This document shows positions 10,464-19,360 of a stretch of 20,011 nucleotides of DNA, piece after piece; the first letter of the stretch is position 1; every line of letters starts with the position of its first letter. Under the pieces are notes generated by a model, which had not been told where the DNA came from, ran no database searches, and worked only from the letters and a program-made list of their open reading frames with translations. Where the stretch lies: positions 1 to 20,011 of the IMG/VR virus record IMGVR_UViG_3300030294_000190. One strand, 5' to 3'. The DNA comes from a virus. A program made the translations under genes and the position numbers.

Positions 10464-12194
10464 CTATTTAACCTGTTCGATAACGAGAGCTGATTTAGGA
10501 TGTATAAGAGCACCCGAGCATCTAGTCTCGATCAAGTATTTGTACTGGTTGTAGTCGATATCGAAGTCGTCGAACATACCTATCTGACCACCCTTATCAG
10601 CGCCCATAGCATAGTCACCAAGACTAACCATTATGCCTTTAAGAGCAAGAGTCTCTGCTCCAACAACTCTTTCAAGACCAGCCATAGCTGGAACTTCAAC
10701 GATCCTTGAAACTCTGAGTGTTGCTTCAAGATCAGCAACTGTATTGTGGATTCTTCTACCCAAACTATCTTTAAGTAAAAGCATGTCAGTCAACAGACCA
10801 GTAGTTGTGTAGTATGCTGGAATACCACTACCTTTGTAGTTCTCTCTCGACTTTATGATTTCATCTATAAGATCCTGAGTGTCGCTAACAGCTGTAACTT
10901 TAACGTGGTGAGCATACAGGTCATTGTCAGTGTAGATAGGTCTGATACACTGCTCATCGATTTTGTCTAAACTAGCGATGTCTCTTCCATCTCCAACAAG
11001 AACAGCTCTTGCAAGTTCCTCGTCAAGCATCATTCTCATTTCAGCCTTCAACCAAGCAACTACATCCAGATCAGTTATGTCAAGCATGTCGTCTCTGTCA
11101 AGTTTCTGTTTCTTGTAGATAGTAGTAGGGTAAGTAGTTCTCTTAGCAAGTGCAAAGAACTCTTCTTTCTTAACATTTCCCTTAACATAACCCTTAGCTC
11201 TTGCATCTTCAAGAGATATGTCTGCATATATGGATTTGATTCTTGAGAATGGAGTATGTTTTGTTCCATCCATTACGCTGGTAACCCATGCCATGTCTCT
11301 CTTAAGGAAGTCTGGTGAGTTAACAACGCTCTGTGCATCTGGGAACAAGTAGTCAATGTGCTCTATGCCGTATGTAACCGCATGTGCGAGTACAGCATCC
11401 TTAAGTGAACCTCTCTTCTGAGCATCTGAGAATATGCTCTTTACTGCGTCATGTGATAATGCTTCTCCACCGCCAATATCGTCTTTGCTTTCAAATATAT
11501 TATGTTTCATCTCTTCGCCTCCATCAGTGTATGCCTGCTGTAAAGCGGCATCATTATTTGTTGTAGCTTCGTCTAGTGCTGCGCCTATCATGTAATATAC
11601 GACATTTTTCTGTTCTTCGCTAAGACTATCGAATACCTCCTGAACAGTAGGGTCCTCGTTAGCTGCTGGTGCTGCTGGTGGTGCTGCCTTTACTGCTGCT
11701 GGTGCTGCTGCATGGACAACTTCAGTTTCTTTAAACATAGTGATCTCCTCTCCTGTATAAATTATTGCTTCTTCTGGAATTTCATCGAAGCTGCCATCGC
11801 TATGTTGAAACGATACATTGTCGATTAAAGCCCCTGGATTAGCCCCAGTTAAAACTAAGCTTACTTCGCGAATTGCCCCGTGTAGAACATCTCCGCCATT
11901 CTGTTTAAGGTTATTAGCATAAATGGATAATGCCGATATATCACCATGCTGGACTAATTCTCTAGCATGTGAACCTGCTTGACTTTTGTTAACTTTACAA
12001 TATGCATACACTCCATCAGCTCTATTTTCAAGAACTGCATGACCTAGAACGTTCGTTGGGTCGTCATGAGAATGCTGCCAAACGAGTGGAACAGTAGCTC
12101 CATCATTATGTTTAAATGCATCTTTACGAATTATTCGCCCATCAGAACATTGTAAATCATTTTTTGTAGCATATCCACTAAAATCAAATTTCAT
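10464..12194 (-). CDS. Prohead protease fused to HK97-fold major capsid protein
   Basis: This encodes 576 residues in one frame. Residues 1-130 are an HK97-type prohead serine protease: LVWQHSHDDPTNVLGHA holds the likely catalytic His41, GDISALSIYAN holds the likely Ser90, and IREVSLVLTGANPGAL (about 108-123) is the following conserved strand. Residues about 153-235 hold an Ala/Pro linker and a helical acidic part that looks like a scaffold (delta) domain. Residues about 245-576 are the major capsid protein, with DARAKGYVKGNVKKEEFFALAK, then LVGDGRD, and a C-terminal IETRCSGALIHPKSALVI. The protease would cut away the scaffold during head maturation. The ATG at 12194 has AAGGAGGATAAAAG upstream. 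An internal strong start at 11738 may give a separate capsid-only product. In most HK97-type phages these are two genes. Confidence 0.9.
   Translation of the reverse strand: MKFDFSGYATKNDLQCSDGRIIRKDAFKHNDGATVPLVWQHSHDDPTNVLGHAVLENRADGVYAYCKVNKSQAGSHARELVQHGDISALSIYANNLKQNGGDVLHGAIREVSLVLTGANPGALIDNVSFQHSDGSFDEIPEEAIIYTGEEITMFKETEVVHAAAPAAVKAAPPAAPAANEDPTVQEVFDSLSEEQKNVVYYMIGAALDEATTNNDAALQQAYTDGGEEMKHNIFESKDDIGGGEALSHDAVKSIFSDAQKRGSLKDAVLAHAVTYGIEHIDYLFPDAQSVVNSPDFLKRDMAWVTSVMDGTKHTPFSRIKSIYADISLEDARAKGYVKGNVKKEEFFALAKRTTYPTTIYKKQKLDRDDMLDITDLDVVAWLKAEMRMMLDEELARAVLVGDGRDIASLDKIDEQCIRPIYTDNDLYAHHVKVTAVSDTQDLIDEIIKSRENYKGSGIPAYYTTTGLLTDMLLLKDSLGRRIHNTVADLEATLRVSRIVEVPAMAGLERVVGAETLALKGIMVSLGDYAMGADKGGQIGMFDDFDIDYNQYKYLIETRCSGALIHPKSALVIEQVK
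11736..11752 (-). promoter_or_regulatory. Internal ribosome binding site and ATG for a capsid-only product
   Basis: Within the fused gene the minus strand reads GGAGAGGAGATCACT and then ATG at 11738, with about 7 bases between GGAG and the ATG. This ATG is codon 153, in frame, just after the protease domain. Starting there would give a 424-residue scaffold-plus-capsid protein without the protease. The same bases encode Gly-Glu-Glu-Ile-Thr, so the site could be chance, but its strength and position are striking. Confidence 0.6.
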
Positions 12195-12212
12195 ATTCTT
12201 TTATCCTCCTTT

Positions 12213-13472
12213 TTAAGTAGTAGTTCCACTTGGTAAGAGTGGCGTTTCAGGATTACCATCAGTAGTAGGAGTAGTAGGCGAGTTAATGTTCTTGTTCTTT
12301 AACTCATCTGCTTTAGGATCACTCGATGGTTTAAATCCAATGATACCTCTAAACTCATTTGACGATAGAATTTCATTTCGAGTAAATTTGTCAGCAATAT
12401 CAGCCAATTGACTGACTGGCACTAACTTGAATGGATCTCTAAAGTATACTATTGATTGGTTTTGAGACCTTGCAGTCTTAGTTAGGAACTTGCGCTTCAT
12501 CTCATCAACTATTGCTGATATGATTGGTTCGATAGTTCGGCTAAAGTACGTCAGCATTTCTTGTTCGCCTGCTGAGCCATTGAAGATAGCTTCAGTAATA
12601 CCTAACTGGCCATATAGCATACTTGTTAGATACGTGATTTGACCCATCAGGTTGTTCTCGGTAGGTCTATTCAACTGAGTAATACGTTCTGTACCATCAG
12701 TATAAGCTATACCATACTTTGAACCCGATAACTGCTCCTCTATGTCCTTCCTACGAATCTCGGCTTGTTCTTTTCTAGCTGCTGTTTTAATTACATAAGG
12801 TAATTGTATTATAAGGTCGAGTTTACCTGAACCACTCTGTTCGTCAACAGCATCTATAAGATTTAACTTTCGTATTAGACGTTGGAGGGTTGAGTTTGGC
12901 TCGTTCATAACTGAATAGAATGGATTTTCTATAATAGCTACCATGCTTTTAGGGACTGTTATGTCTTCTTTCTTCGCTGTCTTTTCATTGTAAACCTGAA
13001 CTTTTATATGTGCTGGATACCACTCTAATATCTTTCCGGCTCTTAATTTTTGAATATCATAAGAGTTGGAAAATGCTGGATTATAAGTTGTATCTGTTGG
13101 TACTATAGCAACCTGACCTTCATCAAACATTGATAATACAATATCCTTAATAAAGGATCGTCCAGTCTGGTCCATGTTAGCATCTAATGTTAAACAATCA
13201 TTAAGGCCAGAAGTCATTGGTTCTATGAACCTACCATTTGGATCTGTACGGACATGCTGTATGGAGATTGCTGCTACGTCGGTTGATATACGACTATAGA
13301 CTGAATTGACAATAGACCGTTCATTACCCATAGACAGTCTGGTTTTATCAGGTCTAGAATAATTAGCAGGTCCATAATTTGTATACCTATCTACTTGACT
13401 ATTTGCTTGACCTGTAGTAAAAGCATTCCAAGCATGTTTTAATCTACTCCTAATTGTTTCCTTTTCTTGCAA
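12213..13472 (-). CDS. Portal protein (TTG start)
   Basis: This encodes 419 residues. It forms the ring at the unique head vertex through which DNA is packaged and released. HK97-type portal features are NSVYSRISTDVAAISIQHV (about 56-74), LNDCLTLDANMDQTGRSFI (about 90-108) with MFDEGQVAIVP, and the later IFNGSAGEQEMLTYFSRTIEP with IISAIVDEMKRKFL. The C-terminal part after about residue 395 is polar and Pro/Thr-rich. Translation most likely begins at TTG 13472, because AAAGGAGGTGAG lies 4-7 bases upstream and no ATG is nearby before the conserved part. It lies directly before the protease-capsid gene, as usual, but after a head-fibre-like gene rather than straight after TerL. Confidence 0.92.
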   Translation of the reverse strand: MQEKETIRSRLKHAWNAFTTGQANSQVDRYTNYGPANYSRPDKTRLSMGNERSIVNSVYSRISTDVAAISIQHVRTDPNGRFIEPMTSGLNDCLTLDANMDQTGRSFIKDIVLSMFDEGQVAIVPTDTTYNPAFSNSYDIQKLRAGKILEWYPAHIKVQVYNEKTAKKEDITVPKSMVAIIENPFYSVMNEPNSTLQRLIRKLNLIDAVDEQSGSGKLDLIIQLPYVIKTAARKEQAEIRRKDIEEQLSGSKYGIAYTDGTERITQLNRPTENNLMGQITYLTSMLYGQLGITEAIFNGSAGEQEMLTYFSRTIEPIISAIVDEMKRKFLTKTARSQNQSIVYFRDPFKLVPVSQLADIADKFTRNEILSSNEFRGIIGFKPSSDPKADELKNKNINSPTTPTTDGNPETPLLPSGTTT

Positions 13473-13522: not shown

Positions 13523-14491
13523 TTAGAATGCTGAACCAAGAGAAATTCTTCTCCAGTTTTTACCGGCAATTGTGTTGTCAGCCACACATCTATACATGTA
13601 AGTAGCGTCAACCATTTCCTGATTTATTGAACCAACTGTTCCGTCTACTCCAGCAGAAAGTTTCGTAGCTGATCCAGCAAAAGTTGCGTTAGCCATTACT
13701 TTTCCAATAACTATATTATTTCCAGCAACTCCACTAACCTTAGCAGTCAGTTCAACTGTATCGCCAGCACCATCTACGGCTGAAACACCCTGAGTATCCA
13801 ATGTTGTAATTGCAGACACCAATGCGAGTATAGCATTAGCCGCAGTACAATTTGTTCCTAACAGTAAAGTAACAGCTGCAAATGTATCTGTTCCTGCTGT
13901 TATTGTTTCGGTTGAAGCAATTGAATTACCAGCAACTCCACCAACCAACGCCGTTATAGTACATGTGTTGGCAGCAAAGTTTGCAGCACTAACTAATGGA
14001 TGTGGCGTGTTTATGGAATCAGTACCATTGATAGCAGCAACTATATTTATCTTAGTAGCAGGTAAATCAGTGCCGATTGCTATTTCACCATTACCAGTAG
14101 CAGTGCCAGTTGGTACAAATGTAAATACCTTAGTGCCGATAGTCATAGTATTTCCACTTACTGGCTGAGTATCAATTGTTAATACAACAGCAGCTTTATC
14201 TGCATATGTGGAGATATCTACGGCTTTGTTTGTTGGTGTGGTTTTGGTCTGTGCAGCATCAGCTAAGAATTCATAGACATCTGATCCTGCTACTGTTGGA
14301 TTATCAATCGTAACTTTCTCACCGTCAATAACAACTCCTGATACCGTTAGAATTTTTCCAGCATTAACTGCATTTACTGGTGTTCCACTAATAACTTCCA
14401 TTTCAGAAATCCTATTTCCAAGTTTCATTGCTTTGGCATGAATATTAATCTTATTAATCTGGTCAATTTGTTTAGCGGTTAATCTTGTCAT
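13523..14491 (-). CDS. Head-fibre-like decoration protein
   Basis: This encodes 322 residues starting at ATG 14491 with AGAGGAG upstream. The last 35 residues (DATYMYRCVADNTIAGKNWR, then RISLGSAF) are a C-terminal signature I associate with phage head-fibre and capsid-decoration proteins. The N-terminal 30 residues are helical and basic. The middle is low in charge and beta-rich, with at least two related units marked by GGVAGNSI (about 184-191) and SGVAGNNI (about 253-260). There is also a GTKVFTFVPTGTATGNGEIA stretch of a type common in phage surface proteins. It probably sits outside the capsid and may bind host or mucus sugars, but that is inference. It lies between the tag-bearing proteins and the portal. 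Confidence 0.7.
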   Translation of the reverse strand: MTRLTAKQIDQINKINIHAKAMKLGNRISEMEVISGTPVNAVNAGKILTVSGVVIDGEKVTIDNPTVAGSDVYEFLADAAQTKTTPTNKAVDISTYADKAAVVLTIDTQPVSGNTMTIGTKVFTFVPTGTATGNGEIAIGTDLPATKINIVAAINGTDSINTPHPLVSAANFAANTCTITALVGGVAGNSIASTETITAGTDTFAAVTLLLGTNCTAANAILALVSAITTLDTQGVSAVDGAGDTVELTAKVSGVAGNNIVIGKVMANATFAGSATKLSAGVDGTVGSINQEMVDATYMYRCVADNTIAGKNWRRISLGSAF

Positions 14492-14524: not shown

Positions 14525-15049
14525 TTATTGTTTAGATGCTTGTACAGTTGATACTATTGCATGTCCTACGCCATAATAAGTTCCAACGGATGCTAATACA
14601 ACGCCCGCTGTTAACTGACCAGACTTCATCATAGCAAGTCCACCTACTTGAGATGCTACTACAATTCCCGCATCTTTTAATAGATTCTGACTTAATGTCT
14701 TACCATTTTTTAATGTTTTGGGTGCTACTATATTTTTACTGGCAGCACTTTTATATTTAGATTTTATTTGTGCTTGTTCATTGTCCAAGGCTTTACTTCT
14801 TTTGATTACTGCATTTACATCATTACCTTTTCCAGACTTTTGTAGGTCAGCCATGTCTTTCTGAAACTTAGCATTAGACTTTTTAAGTTCATCTCTTTTA
14901 CTGGCCGAAGGTTTAGATGTGGCTGCTCCACCAGTTCTATGCCCCCACTTCATGCCTAATTTACCAAAATGTTCGAGTGAATCTTCAGAGTTGGTACCTT
15001 TACCCCAAGACATTCCCATTGCACCGTAATGTTTTAATTCATTATCCAT
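14525..15049 (-). CDS. Protein with two GMxWG tags and hydrophobic C-terminus
   Basis: This encodes 174 residues. The first 38 residues hold two copies of a short motif: LKHYGAMGMSWGKG (5-18) and LEHFGKLGMKWGHR (25-38). A basic, helical and possibly coiled-coil part (about 50-105) follows. Then comes a largely hydrophobic region (about 125-168, with GIVVASQVGGLAMM and GVVLASVGTYYGVG) that could form one or two membrane helices. The N-terminus is identical in protein sequence to that of the next gene upstream for 36 residues. Function is unknown. I infer a virion protein brought into or onto the head by its tags, with a possible membrane role on infection. The start is supported by AAAAGGAGG. 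Confidence 0.7.
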   Translation of the reverse strand: MDNELKHYGAMGMSWGKGTNSEDSLEHFGKLGMKWGHRTGGAATSKPSASKRDELKKSNAKFQKDMADLQKSGKGNDVNAVIKRSKALDNEQAQIKSKYKSAASKNIVAPKTLKNGKTLSQNLLKDAGIVVASQVGGLAMMKSGQLTAGVVLASVGTYYGVGHAIVSTVQASKQ

Positions 15050-15064: not shown

Positions 15065-15604
15065 TTAACCAAAATTCTTCTTCCATGTCTGAGCAGTTTT
15101 ATAGGTATTTACTGCTGTTTTTGCCGACTTTAACGCTGAACTAACAGCGTGGTCGATTGCTGGTTTGTTTTGAGTGTATAGAATATAACCAGCTGCTAAT
15201 GAGGTTGTTCCCGTTAGGGTCTTAGCTACAATTTTAGCACTTCTACTTGCCTGGTCTTTAGTTGCTCTACCTCTACTGTTAGATATAGCTTTATTATTTA
15301 TTTTAGAGTAGTTAATTTCAGATAGGGCTTTATCGTATGCTGCTTTATACTGAGGATTTTTCATTTTTTCATCAATTTCTTTTTTAACTAATCTTCTCTG
15401 TATACCAGCACCTTTTCCATATGCTTGACGGGCCACTTCGTGCTTAGTTGCATCTTTCTTGGCTGTTTTATTTAATTTATTTTCTGCATGTCGTTGTCCC
15501 CACTTCATGCCTAACTTACCAAAATGCTCTAGTGAATCTTCAGAGTTGGTACCTTTACCCCAAGACATTCCCATTGCACCGTAATGTTTTAATTCATTAT
15601 CCAT
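15065..15604 (-). CDS. Protein with two GMxWG tags, paralogous N-terminus
   Basis: This encodes 179 residues. It starts with the same 36 residues as its downstream neighbour, again with tags at 5-18 (GMSWGKG) and 25-38 (LEHFGKLGMKWGQR). After the tags the two proteins do not align. Here residues 40-120 are highly basic (KLNKTAKKDATKHEVARQ and RRLVKKEIDEKMKN), then a short hydrophobic stretch (about 125-143, with TGTTSLAAGYILY), then a basic end. The basic part might bind DNA. Function is unknown. The gene starts 11 bases after the TerL stop, and its AGGAGG site overlaps that stop, so it is likely co-translated with TerL. Confidence 0.7.
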   Translation of the reverse strand: MDNELKHYGAMGMSWGKGTNSEDSLEHFGKLGMKWGQRHAENKLNKTAKKDATKHEVARQAYGKGAGIQRRLVKKEIDEKMKNPQYKAAYDKALSEINYSKINNKAISNSRGRATKDQASRSAKIVAKTLTGTTSLAAGYILYTQNKPAIDHAVSSALKSAKTAVNTYKTAQTWKKNFG

Positions 15605-15615: not shown

Positions 15616-17361
15616 CTATTCGAATGCATCTTTATTAACCTTATAGGCAATATAAGCATCCATTAATGCCGAAACACTATCAATTTTATTTTCATATCGT
15701 TTCTTTAATAGTTTACGATTACCGTTTGTATCTTCTAAAGTAACACAGTTACCCATTGTGAATGTCATTAATTCTTGATCAAATACTAACATTCGTTCTG
15801 CTGCTAGATTCTTAAGTTCACCTAGTGGTACTGACTCAGTCTTAGAACCTTGGATAACTTTCTCAATTCCATATGGTCCATTCTCTGCTTCCCATCTAGT
15901 TACAAATTCTTTAGCATTGTAAGGGTCAAATCCAAAACTTCGTACGTCATAACCTTCTGAAATTATGAATTCATCTACATCTTCATAGACCTCCATCATG
16001 TCTAGTACAGTGCCTTCTAAGACCATCAAACTACCCTCATCTAAGAACTGGTTATACTTGCTTCTCATTGCTCCTGGAAGTTTCATAAGCGTTAATGATG
16101 TGATATAGCATCTAGTCTTAACTCCGAACTTACCACTTGCTAATGGAAATAAGAAAGTGAAAGCGCAGAAGTCATCTCCCTGAGACATATCGGCTCCCAT
16201 AGAGCAGACCATCTTCCAGAAGTTACGTTTTCTATGTGGCAAGGTTTCTTCGTAAGTGAAGAAGTAGGTATACCCTTCCATTGGAAGACCAAACCTCTTT
16301 GCCAGAATGTCATTCCTAGAAGCAGGTGCTTTCTCCGCTCTCTCAACGTCCAACTGATAGGTTTCGTACGTAACAGTCTTTCCGAGATTAGGATTAGCCT
16401 TTTGCCAGGTTGACGGATCAGTAATTTCTTTGACATCATCGAGTTTGTACCACCAGATGGAAACATGTGGGTTTATGTAGTCTCCTCTAAGTATGTCAGT
16501 TAGTTCCATTTTGATTGTATCGCCACTTCCATTCCTCACGGTACCTTCTGAACTCGTCGCTACGATTAAGTAGTCATCAAGTTTGGATGCACCCTGCTCA
16601 ATAGCACCAACAACATCCTCTCGAATGTCACCAGAGAGCCACTCATCAACAGTTGTTATCTTAGGTCTTAATCCCTGAAGTTTGTCTATGCTCATAGGTC
16701 GAACTTCTATTAGTGATCCTGTAAGAAAGTTCTCAACTCCCTTCTTAGTAGATGCCAACTTAATTCTATTGGCTCTGGAACCGGTTGTGTTCTGTAAGGA
16801 ACCCTCAGTTAAGAACTTAAAGAGAGGACCTCTTGATCTTGTAATGGCAGTTCGTATAGGAGACATAACTTCATCTGCCTGTTTCATTGTTGGGGCAGTC
16901 GTAATCTGGTGTGTGGTTGTAGTATCAACGTTGTGAAAGTACGATTGAATACATGAATCATACAACGACTTCGCAGCACCTCTTCCCACGATCAAATATT
17001 GTTTGTTAATCAATCGCTTTTTAATCATCTTACGAACATACTTTCCGCCATGATTATCTGGAGATGGTTCGTAGATACTTCGCTCAACAAAGTAGTACCA
17101 TCCAAATACTGCTTCGGCCCATAACTTAAATGAATCAAGTAATACCAAATCAGCACCATCAGTAAGAGTAAGTTCATTTTCGCAATAATTAACAAACCCC
17201 TCTACCACTCCACTATCATAGTAGACTCCTGGATTAGCTATTAGTTCATCTATACGATTCATCTCCATAGAGATTTCTTTACAGACTGGAATATCTCCCC
17301 TAATAACTGCCTCACGAAATGCACCATAGTATTTGGGTGTTGCTGTATTTGATAATGACAT
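15616..17361 (-). CDS. terL: Terminase large subunit
   Basis: This encodes 581 residues. It is the ATP-driven DNA packaging motor and the nuclease that cuts concatemers. The ATPase domain shows a Walker A at 126-132 (GRGAAKS), Walker B at 235-240 (TTVDE followed by W) and a coupling motif ATS at 268-270. The nuclease domain has RNase-H-like acidic residues at D391 (SMGADMSQGDDF), D479 (SFGFDPYNAKEF) and D561 (ENKIDSVSALMDAYIAY), the last being the typical end of this family. The length is normal. The ATG at 17361 follows the previous stop by a few bases, with AAGTAGGTG as ribosome binding site. Two tag-bearing genes follow and one precedes it, which is the main peculiarity of this locus. Confidence 0.96.
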   Translation of the reverse strand: MSLSNTATPKYYGAFREAVIRGDIPVCKEISMEMNRIDELIANPGVYYDSGVVEGFVNYCENELTLTDGADLVLLDSFKLWAEAVFGWYYFVERSIYEPSPDNHGGKYVRKMIKKRLINKQYLIVGRGAAKSLYDSCIQSYFHNVDTTTTHQITTAPTMKQADEVMSPIRTAITRSRGPLFKFLTEGSLQNTTGSRANRIKLASTKKGVENFLTGSLIEVRPMSIDKLQGLRPKITTVDEWLSGDIREDVVGAIEQGASKLDDYLIVATSSEGTVRNGSGDTIKMELTDILRGDYINPHVSIWWYKLDDVKEITDPSTWQKANPNLGKTVTYETYQLDVERAEKAPASRNDILAKRFGLPMEGYTYFFTYEETLPHRKRNFWKMVCSMGADMSQGDDFCAFTFLFPLASGKFGVKTRCYITSLTLMKLPGAMRSKYNQFLDEGSLMVLEGTVLDMMEVYEDVDEFIISEGYDVRSFGFDPYNAKEFVTRWEAENGPYGIEKVIQGSKTESVPLGELKNLAAERMLVFDQELMTFTMGNCVTLEDTNGNRKLLKKRYENKIDSVSALMDAYIAYKVNKDAFE

Positions 17362-17368
17362 AATTCAC

Positions 17369-17746
17369 CTACTTTCCAGGTATGGCTTTATTTAAAAGTA
17401 TATCTAATCCTTTAGACATGCCCTTAGCAGCTAAATTGGACACGACCTGTTTAGAAGAATTAGAAAGAACATCATTCACATACTTTCTACCAGCAGAAAC
17501 ATCCTGTTTGCTTAGATCTTTATATGATCTCTCTAACTGTAGTCTATTATTAAGAGTTTGTAGTTCAGAATTAGACATCTCATAGATCTTCTTCTTCTTT
17601 AATTTCTGTTTCTGAGCATAATCCTCGCTAACCTGTTTTGGTTTATGTATGCTAGATGTTATACTAGACATACTAGTTTTAGCATTTCTATGACCCCAAT
17701 GCATTCCTAATTTACCGTAATGCTCTAATGATTCATTATCTGTCAT
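17369..17746 (-). CDS. Small protein with one GMxWG tag
   Basis: This encodes 125 residues. The tag LEHYGKLGMHWGHR is at residues 7-20. A Ser/Thr-rich linker and a strongly basic stretch (QKQKLKKKKIY) follow. Next is MSNSELQTLNNRLQLERSYKDL (about 57-78), a helix pattern I have seen after this tag in other phage proteins. The C-terminus (NLAAKGMSKGLDILLNKAI) is weakly hydrophobic. The ATG shares a base with the upstream stop (TAATG) and has GGAGG before it. Function is unknown. The shared tag and the place just before TerL suggest a head-associated role. Confidence 0.7.
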   Translation of the reverse strand: MTDNESLEHYGKLGMHWGHRNAKTSMSSITSSIHKPKQVSEDYAQKQKLKKKKIYEMSNSELQTLNNRLQLERSYKDLSKQDVSAGRKYVNDVLSNSSKQVVSNLAAKGMSKGLDILLNKAIPGK

Positions 17747-18131: not shown

Positions 18132-18542
18132 TTACAACCAAGGACATGTGTCATTACGTCGTCTTTCTATTGGTGCCTGCGGGAGTAATGATGCATCTCC
18201 ATAATGTATAGCATTATGAGTTTGAAGTATTGTACTAATAAGGAACTCAGGATCATAGATTACATCCCTATCAAGTTCAACATCTTCTATTGTTATTTGG
18301 TTCATGTGATGTACTATTATAGAACTATAAATTTCATGACCTTCAACTCCTAAGTCACAACCATTATCTCTAATAATAACATCATCACGAGTCTTTCTCC
18401 ATCGTTTAGATCTGTATAAGATTTGATTTAGATAACGATCAAACCCAAATGTAGTATCTCCAACTGAACCTTTGATTCGTAGATAATCATAACGATCTTC
18501 GAAACTTATTAAATTTTTTAGTTCAGAATATGACCTAATCAT
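18132..18542 (-). CDS. HNH nuclease-like packaging-module protein
   Basis: This encodes 136 residues. RSKRWRKTRDDVIIRDNGCD (about 44-63), VHHMNQITIEDV (78-89) and QTHNAIHYGD (107-116) form an HNH-like set with candidate metal and catalytic residues H78/H79, N81, H109 and H113. The usual zinc-binding CxxC pairs are absent. Very similar patterns are common in Firmicutes phages near the terminase genes. HNH proteins there are known to help terminase cut cos sites in some phages. The start ATG overlaps the upstream stop as ATGA. I see no good ribosome binding site, so translation probably depends on coupling. Whether it is an active nuclease cannot be told from sequence. Confidence 0.75.
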   Translation of the reverse strand: MIRSYSELKNLISFEDRYDYLRIKGSVGDTTFGFDRYLNQILYRSKRWRKTRDDVIIRDNGCDLGVEGHEIYSSIIVHHMNQITIEDVELDRDVIYDPEFLISTILQTHNAIHYGDASLLPQAPIERRRNDTCPWL

Positions 18543-19360
18543 AACATTATTACATTTATGATCTTTTCTAAAGCACGTACTTTATGTACTGTAGATGATA
18601 CAATATCCTCTTTTGGATTTAATAAAATAAGCGGTAATTTACCTAAAAACCCGGAATCATTCTCATCAACCACTGCGTTATAGCCAGTAGATCTAACATG
18701 GTCAAAGAATTTCGTAACCAGTGGATTATCTTTGTTATTAAGATCAGTCATAAAGTTTTTATATAACCCATCATCAACTTCTTTTACATTGTGGGTTTTC
18801 ATATACATCTCAGCCATTATCTTTTTAGATGGAACTTTTATTTCATTCTTACTCTTCATAACATGTTCGTATACACTCTTACCTTCGTCTGGTATGAACC
18901 CTTGTTTTTTCCATGATTCAAAATATCCAGGCATGGTTTCTTTGTAAATTCTTGCATCTTTCTTTACGTGGGATACATATATTTTACCATTCGTCGAATA
19001 ATCTTCAAAAGATTTGGTACTCATCCTATAGAATTTAGAACCTTTAGGAATCGTTGTATCTTTTGTTGATAATGAATTTAGATCTACTATTTTTCCAAAT
19101 CGAAAAGTCTGTACTCCTCCTATTGGTAGATTATTCTTTTTGTAAGCATATACACCACCAGCAACGGCTAAGGTTACACCAACTGCTGCTGCTCCAATTA
19201 GGATGTTCCTTTTAATTCGTTTCTTTCGTTCATCTTCCGTTTCAGTCTTTTTTGAATTACTTGTTATGGTTGTTGATCCTTTTCGATGCCCACATTTCAT
19301 TCCCATTACACCGTGATGTGTGAGTTCTTGTAGTGGAGGTTTCTCTATACTAATCATCAT
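18539..19360 (-). CDS. Tagged membrane-anchored protein, possible ADP-ribosyltransferase-like domain
   Basis: This encodes 273 residues. A variant tag (LTHHGVMGMKCGHR, residues 13-26) has Cys in place of the usual Trp. A charged linker leads to a clear membrane helix at about 52-73 (NILIGAAAVGVTLAVAGGVY) flanked by Lys/Arg. The rest is a soluble domain of about 190 residues. It includes IPKGSKFYRMSTKSF (104-118), GKIYVS (125-130), GYNAVVDENDSG (226-237) and KLPLILLNP. The order R, then YVS, then an acidic pair resembles the R-S-E layout of ADP-ribosyltransferases, but the last glutamate motif is not convincing, so this is a guess. The ATG at 19360 overlaps the upstream gene by 11 bases and has a GGAGGT site. 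Confidence 0.65.
   Translation of the reverse strand: MMISIEKPPLQELTHHGVMGMKCGHRKGSTTITSNSKKTETEDERKKRIKRNILIGAAAVGVTLAVAGGVYAYKKNNLPIGGVQTFRFGKIVDLNSLSTKDTTIPKGSKFYRMSTKSFEDYSTNGKIYVSHVKKDARIYKETMPGYFESWKKQGFIPDEGKSVYEHVMKSKNEIKVPSKKIMAEMYMKTHNVKEVDDGLYKNFMTDLNNKDNPLVTKFFDHVRSTGYNAVVDENDSGFLGKLPLILLNPKEDIVSSTVHKVRALEKIINVIML

Follow-up and report, generated by a model that had tools for sequence, protein, structure and literature searches.

In phage lambda (C/Nu3), phage Mu (I/Z) and the herpesviruses (protease/scaffold), a nested in-frame start gives rise to a protease-free protein, which in the lambda C/Nu3 type shares the C-terminal part of the longer chain and assembles in excess. There the nested product is a scaffold, and the capsid protein is encoded by a separate gene. 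In HK97, the S78 protease gp4 and the HK97-fold capsid protein gp5, which carries the N-terminal delta scaffold domain, are separate genes, and the proheads contain ∼60 protease chains to 415 capsid chains, or roughly seven capsid chains for each protease (PMC12749128). A different arrangement, in which protease and capsid are fused, has been described in Arthrobacter phages of clusters AM and AU (PMC5513430). A strict fusion would force a 1:1 ratio and fill the shell with protease; judged by the HK97 ratio, a fusion therefore needs a surplus of plain capsid chains. A universal internal start would be a simple answer to this stoichiometry problem.

The DNA analysed here (the window) is a 20,011-base IMG/VR virus record. 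A single uninterrupted frame of 576 codons on its minus strand encodes both an S78 protease and a capsid protein of the HK97 fold. This confirms the protease–capsid fusion of the initial annotation, which belongs to a known type (Table 1). The match to phrog_3270, the family of the actinophage fusions, spans residues 2–574, and Pfam finds Peptidase_S78 followed by Phage_capsid (residues 335–572). The AlphaFold model, built with 79 relatives, comprises a confident protease (residues 1–130), a disordered linker (136–182), a small helical module (184–211), a second disordered stretch (211–243), two helices (248–275) and a largely confident capsid (∼300–576). Residues 282–576 of the model align with residues 114–383 of HK97 gp5 (1ohg) with a Z of 15.9 over 250 residues and an rmsd of 5.3; a sequence search of solved structures gave no useful match. 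The genes upstream encode the portal (12213–13472) and the terminase (15616–17361), and the order terminase, portal, fusion, connectors and major tail is that of the actinophage fusions.

Table 1. Features of the fusion gene and its predicted internal starts
Feature	Coordinates	Strand	Evidence
Protease-module-capsid fusion ORF, 12194 to 10464, 576 codons, ATG start; 63.3-kDa full-length product	10464..12194	-	ORF, Pfam, phrog_3270
SD of the gene's own start, AGGAGG	12205..12210	-	Hybridisation -9.8 kcal/mol
S78 prohead protease domain, residues 5–125	11820..12182	-	Pfam PF04586; AlphaFold pLDDT mostly >90
Candidate linker-start SD (site of the initial annotation), GGAGAGGAG	11745..11753	-	-8.4 kcal/mol; kept, with codon 153, in 87%-identical L002
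Candidate start in the linker, ATG at codon 153; would give a module-capsid product of 424 aa and 46.8 kDa	11736..11738	-	Class-level enrichment; own position not conserved
Conserved helical module TVxDVFDTLxEEQKxVVYxMIGxALE, residues 183–211	11562..11648	-	Tandem repeats in some relatives
Capsid-start SD, GGAGG, 7 nt 5' of ATG	11518..11522	-	-9.3 kcal/mol
Predicted capsid start codon ATG, codon 229, MKHNIF; predicted 348-aa, 38.8-kDa capsid-only product	11508..11510	-	Start codon in 127/127 relatives (few slightly shifted)
HK97-fold capsid domain, residues 282–576	10467..11351	-	Foldseek, VIA-align, Pfam PF05065

Full-length homologues are found in 244 phage records (33–54% identity, with at least 80% of the query covered in one place), many of which carry the label 'major capsid and protease fusion protein'. 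For comparison we used 150 fusion genes, drawn from phage isolates, viral contigs and bacterial genomes, of which 127 were non-redundant at ≤90% identity, with a median pairwise identity of 54%. No split homologue, in which a separate capsid gene would begin at this start, was found, and every genome locus with enough upstream sequence was fused. A motif-based sample of viral contigs gave 120 matches, comprising 115 fused genes, four that ran off the contig edge and one chance match; the fusion was thus present in 115/115 genes with an open upstream frame, with an SD in 99%.

The initial annotation had proposed that an internal start supplies capsid protein without protease. The comparison strongly supports the idea, although the main conserved site is not the one named there (codon 153) but codon 229, a universal internal start downstream of the helical module that had been missed. 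At 11510 the window reads GGAGGCGAAGAG-ATG, in frame (GGAGG-CGAAGAG-ATG), and an ATG, GTG or TTG is present at this site in all 127 non-redundant relatives, a few of them shifted by up to five codons. At the fixed alignment column a start codon occurs in 123 of 126 relatives, and the three exceptions have an ATG or GTG no more than five codons away. The column holds M in 109 genes (ATG), V in 13 (GTG in 12) and L in two (TTG in both), against a GTG share of 14% among all Val codons (814/5710). The homologous positions in two Arthrobacter genes and in relatives L059 and L061 were placed by hand. When the genes were clustered at 60% identity, all 37 groups had the start codon and 32 had an SD of -6 kcal/mol or stronger.

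The SD preceding codon 229 is, on average, by far the strongest among the columns held by a start codon, and its mean strength (-8.56 kcal/mol) equals that of the SD at the gene start (-8.60 kcal/mol). A match to AGGAGG of at least five of six bases was found upstream in 121/127 genes. More than 30 tripeptides encode this SD, in two main registers (QEG, EGG, KGG, EGD, EGE, DGG, EED, KEE and MED among them), and the tree calls for at least 34 changes of SD register and 12 of start codon. Measured against a synonymous-codon null over positions -16 to -4, the SD is in excess by -1.77 kcal/mol (p = 1.7e-12); a wider window of -18 to -4 was replaced because it ignored spacing and gave mixed results in GC-rich genes. 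The same bias is visible in single codons: Gly is encoded by GGA in 125/164 cases (76%) in the six codons upstream, compared with 1079/5178 (21%) elsewhere (p = 7e-52), and in GC-rich genes in 13/26 upstream cases compared with 86/1096. Of 54 Gly codons in LibertyBell, a Streptomyces phage, just one is GGA, and it falls in this SD. Predicted mRNA structure is also depleted at the site (-2.5 versus -5.7 kcal/mol, p = 4e-22). Only ∼5% of single genes pass the synonymous test at p < 0.05, because the favoured peptides (EGG, KGG) themselves encode much of the SD, and the signal lies in the ensemble. On these comparative data it is close to certain that codon 229 is a functional translation start.

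A decoy of the form GGxxxM is conserved within the capsid domain, at codon 540. Among the 127 relatives its SD is weaker than the synonymous null by +1.25 kcal/mol, a codon choice that looks as if selection acted against spurious initiation.

The site to which the initial annotation had drawn attention, an in-frame ATG at 11738, is present as described, on the minus strand (the strand had been left unstated). It reads GGAGAGGAGATCACT-ATG (TATACAGGAGAGGAGATCACT-ATG-TTTAAA, with the ATG at 11738–11736), and codon 153 is the sole start codon within the linker of this phage. By itself the site is only slightly better than its peptide recoded with synonymous codons (p = 0.067), and the common IYTGEE peptide already accounts for part of the SD. 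In the corresponding alignment column, only 4/127 non-redundant relatives have Met and 70/127 have Leu, and the homologue check suggested with the site, if applied literally, rejects it. This column test was superseded by a position-free scan of the linkers, which requires no alignment and in which shuffled linker codons serve as the null.

In the first set, 40/127 genes had an ATG with an SD in the linker, where shuffling gave 7.3 ± 2.4. A second, separate set, 72 genes picked out by a DNA motif carrying no linker information, gave an ATG or GTG with an SD in 51, where 4.6 ± 1.9 were expected. Strong-SD linker starts are thus ∼5–11 times commoner than in shuffled linkers, and as a class they lie far beyond chance. 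In the separate set, an SD preceded 15/23 linker GTG codons and 3/93 other Val codons (p = 1e-10), and the commonest second residue after the start was Ala. The densities of SD-preceded starts along the gene (per 1000 codons: protease 0.88, linker 7.83, module 0.35, codon-229 site 96.7, capsid 0.29) therefore point to two start zones only. Counting start codons of any kind, 61/127 genes of the first set have a linker start with an SD and 66/127 do not; as about half lack a detectable one, the linker start would not be essential to the scheme. Among the isolates examined, it is present in several Arthrobacter phages, both Curtobacterium phages, the Faecalibacterium phage and one Lactococcus phage, and none was found in Streptomyces, Gordonia or Rhodococcus phages. 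On the tree, its presence requires 30 changes, compared with a mean of 42.6 and a minimum of 33 in 200 shuffled-label controls. Codon 153 probably belongs to this movable, clade-dependent class of starts for a module-plus-capsid product.

The product starting at codon 153 had been described as scaffold plus capsid. It would indeed be capsid without protease, and its scaffold part is suggested by the position and helical structure of the module, which is possibly scaffold-like. In the predicted capsid-only product, ∼45–55 residues containing two predicted helices lie ahead of the portion aligning to mature HK97 gp5. The module is tandemly repeated in relatives L081 (Arthrobacter phage Qui), L082, L091, L095, L014, L045 and L074, with as many as ∼5 copies in Qui. 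Here, as in Gordon (L091) and Salk (L095), the linker start directly precedes the last copy.

At both the codon 229 site and the linker class, an internal SD and start are conserved beyond what the protein sequence demands. We consider it very likely that this one ORF yields nested proteins by way of internal starts at codon 229 and, depending on the clade, in the linker; the comparative evidence for nested products is strong. Initiation at 12194 would produce the full protease-module-capsid chain, independent initiation at 11510, on its dedicated SD, would produce the capsid protein alone, and in this phage (at 11738) and many relatives, though not in all, a third start within the linker would add a module-plus-capsid chain. 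Since all of the chains share the HK97-fold capsid domain, they could co-assemble through it. The protease would enter the prohead on full-length chains, present as a minority, most of the shell would consist of plain chains, and proteolytic cleavage would afterwards release the protease and the module. Whilst comparison among relatives establishes the conserved predicted start at codon 229 and the enrichment of candidate starts in the linker, we infer the use of both in the window phage, as well as the product ratio, co-assembly, cleavage and the scaffold role of the module. From the SD strengths alone, the outer and codon-229 starts would be expected to initiate to a similar extent; no product ratio follows from them. 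The likeness to lambda C/Nu3 drawn in the initial annotation holds for the way in which the gene would work. It does not extend to membership of that type, as the nested frame runs on into the HK97-fold capsid domain; unlike in lambda, the capsid protein itself would be nested, and starts for module and capsid can be stacked in one ORF. In contrast to HK97, a single ORF with internal starts would take the place of two genes.

The conserved sequence around codon 229 might instead be a feature of the protein, with only the full-length chain being made and G-G-x-x-M-K-H-N-V-F acting, for example, as a cut site for self-release of the protease. Such a role would fit the strong conservation, as protein, of the K/S-H/R-N-V-F that follows the Met, and the predicted disorder of the region, which resembles a cleavable linker. 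However, the M, V and L of the column are encoded almost solely by ATG, GTG and TTG, and the peptide upstream varies freely (EGG, KGG, KEE, MED, EED) whilst the nucleotide SD and its spacing are kept. The SD-favouring codon choice exceeds the demands of the peptide, RNA structure is depleted, and in L059 and L061, where the Met has been lost, there is an ATG with its own SD five codons upstream. We regard the full-length chain as sole product as very improbable. A role in ribosome pausing, with SD-like sequences allowing the protease to fold before the capsid is translated and no initiation taking place, is extremely improbable. Both SD zones do lie at domain boundaries, but pausing requires no start codon at initiation spacing, and linker SDs precede ATG or GTG at least 10 times more often than other codons; at codon 229, moreover, a start codon is invariably present or lies no more than five codons away.

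It is also conceivable that codon 229 alone is functional and that the linker ATGs, including that at 11738, are chance products of purine-rich linkers. The Lys/Glu-rich linkers are indeed purine-rich, the position of the linker start is not conserved, and about half of the first set has none. Shuffled linker codons, however, account for only 4.6–7.3 genes where 38–51 were observed, the comparison of GTG with the other Val codons controls for linker composition, and the clustering of the start's presence on the tree exceeds that in all 200 controls. We therefore consider a chance origin of the linker starts unlikely, and prefer the reading in which both zones initiate translation.

In-frame nested starts, of which lambda C/Nu3 is the textbook case, and protease–capsid fusions are both already known. 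In the open-access literature searched we found no report of an ORF in which stacked starts yield the capsid protein itself as the nested product, and accounts of the fusion (PMC5513430 and genome announcements) but none of an internal start; most subscription papers lay outside the search, and an earlier report is possible. The capsid start is also present in the actinophage fusions but is unannotated, with a single product given in the examined records and papers; in none of those examined among the 244 phage records is a second product listed. The universal internal start predicts, for each such phage examined, a capsid protein missing from the annotation, with Met at codon 229 or its homologue as the expected N-terminus.

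A second family of protease–capsid fusions, with little sequence similarity to the first, is found in Rhodococcus phage RRH1, Gordonia phages GMA5, Rahul and McGonagall, and Arthrobacter phage Decurro. In this family an SD-preceded ATG lies at the end of the protease in 5/7 genes, as in GMA5 (AGGAGGACACCACA-ATG), and none was seen there in SallySpecial or EricDab. A search of viral contigs with RRH1 returned RRH1 itself only. The pattern suggests a repeated solution, in a sample of seven sequences that is too small for a claim. We lean slightly towards a broader proposal, namely that the stacked starts (protease-module-capsid, module-capsid and capsid) form a complete capsid-assembly set with ratios set by the three SDs and conserved in phages of both Firmicutes and Actinobacteria, and that the arrangement arose again in the unrelated fusion family.

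Two further observations concern neighbouring genes. A minus-strand gene (13523–14491) that lies between the portal and the small DUF7211 genes encodes a Thr/Val/Ala-rich protein of 322 aa with no match in Pfam or PHROG; its sequence resembles that of a surface or decoration protein, for which the location is unusual. Four minus-strand neighbours (14525–15049, 15065–15604, 17369–17746 and 18539–19360), the first of which contains Pfam DUF7211, have a common motif of the H(Y/F/H)GxxGMxxG type. Two of them open with an identical 36 residues (MDNELKHYGAMGMSWGKGTNSEDSLEHFGKLGMKWG), and these shared starts, adjoining the terminase gene, look like a recent duplication.
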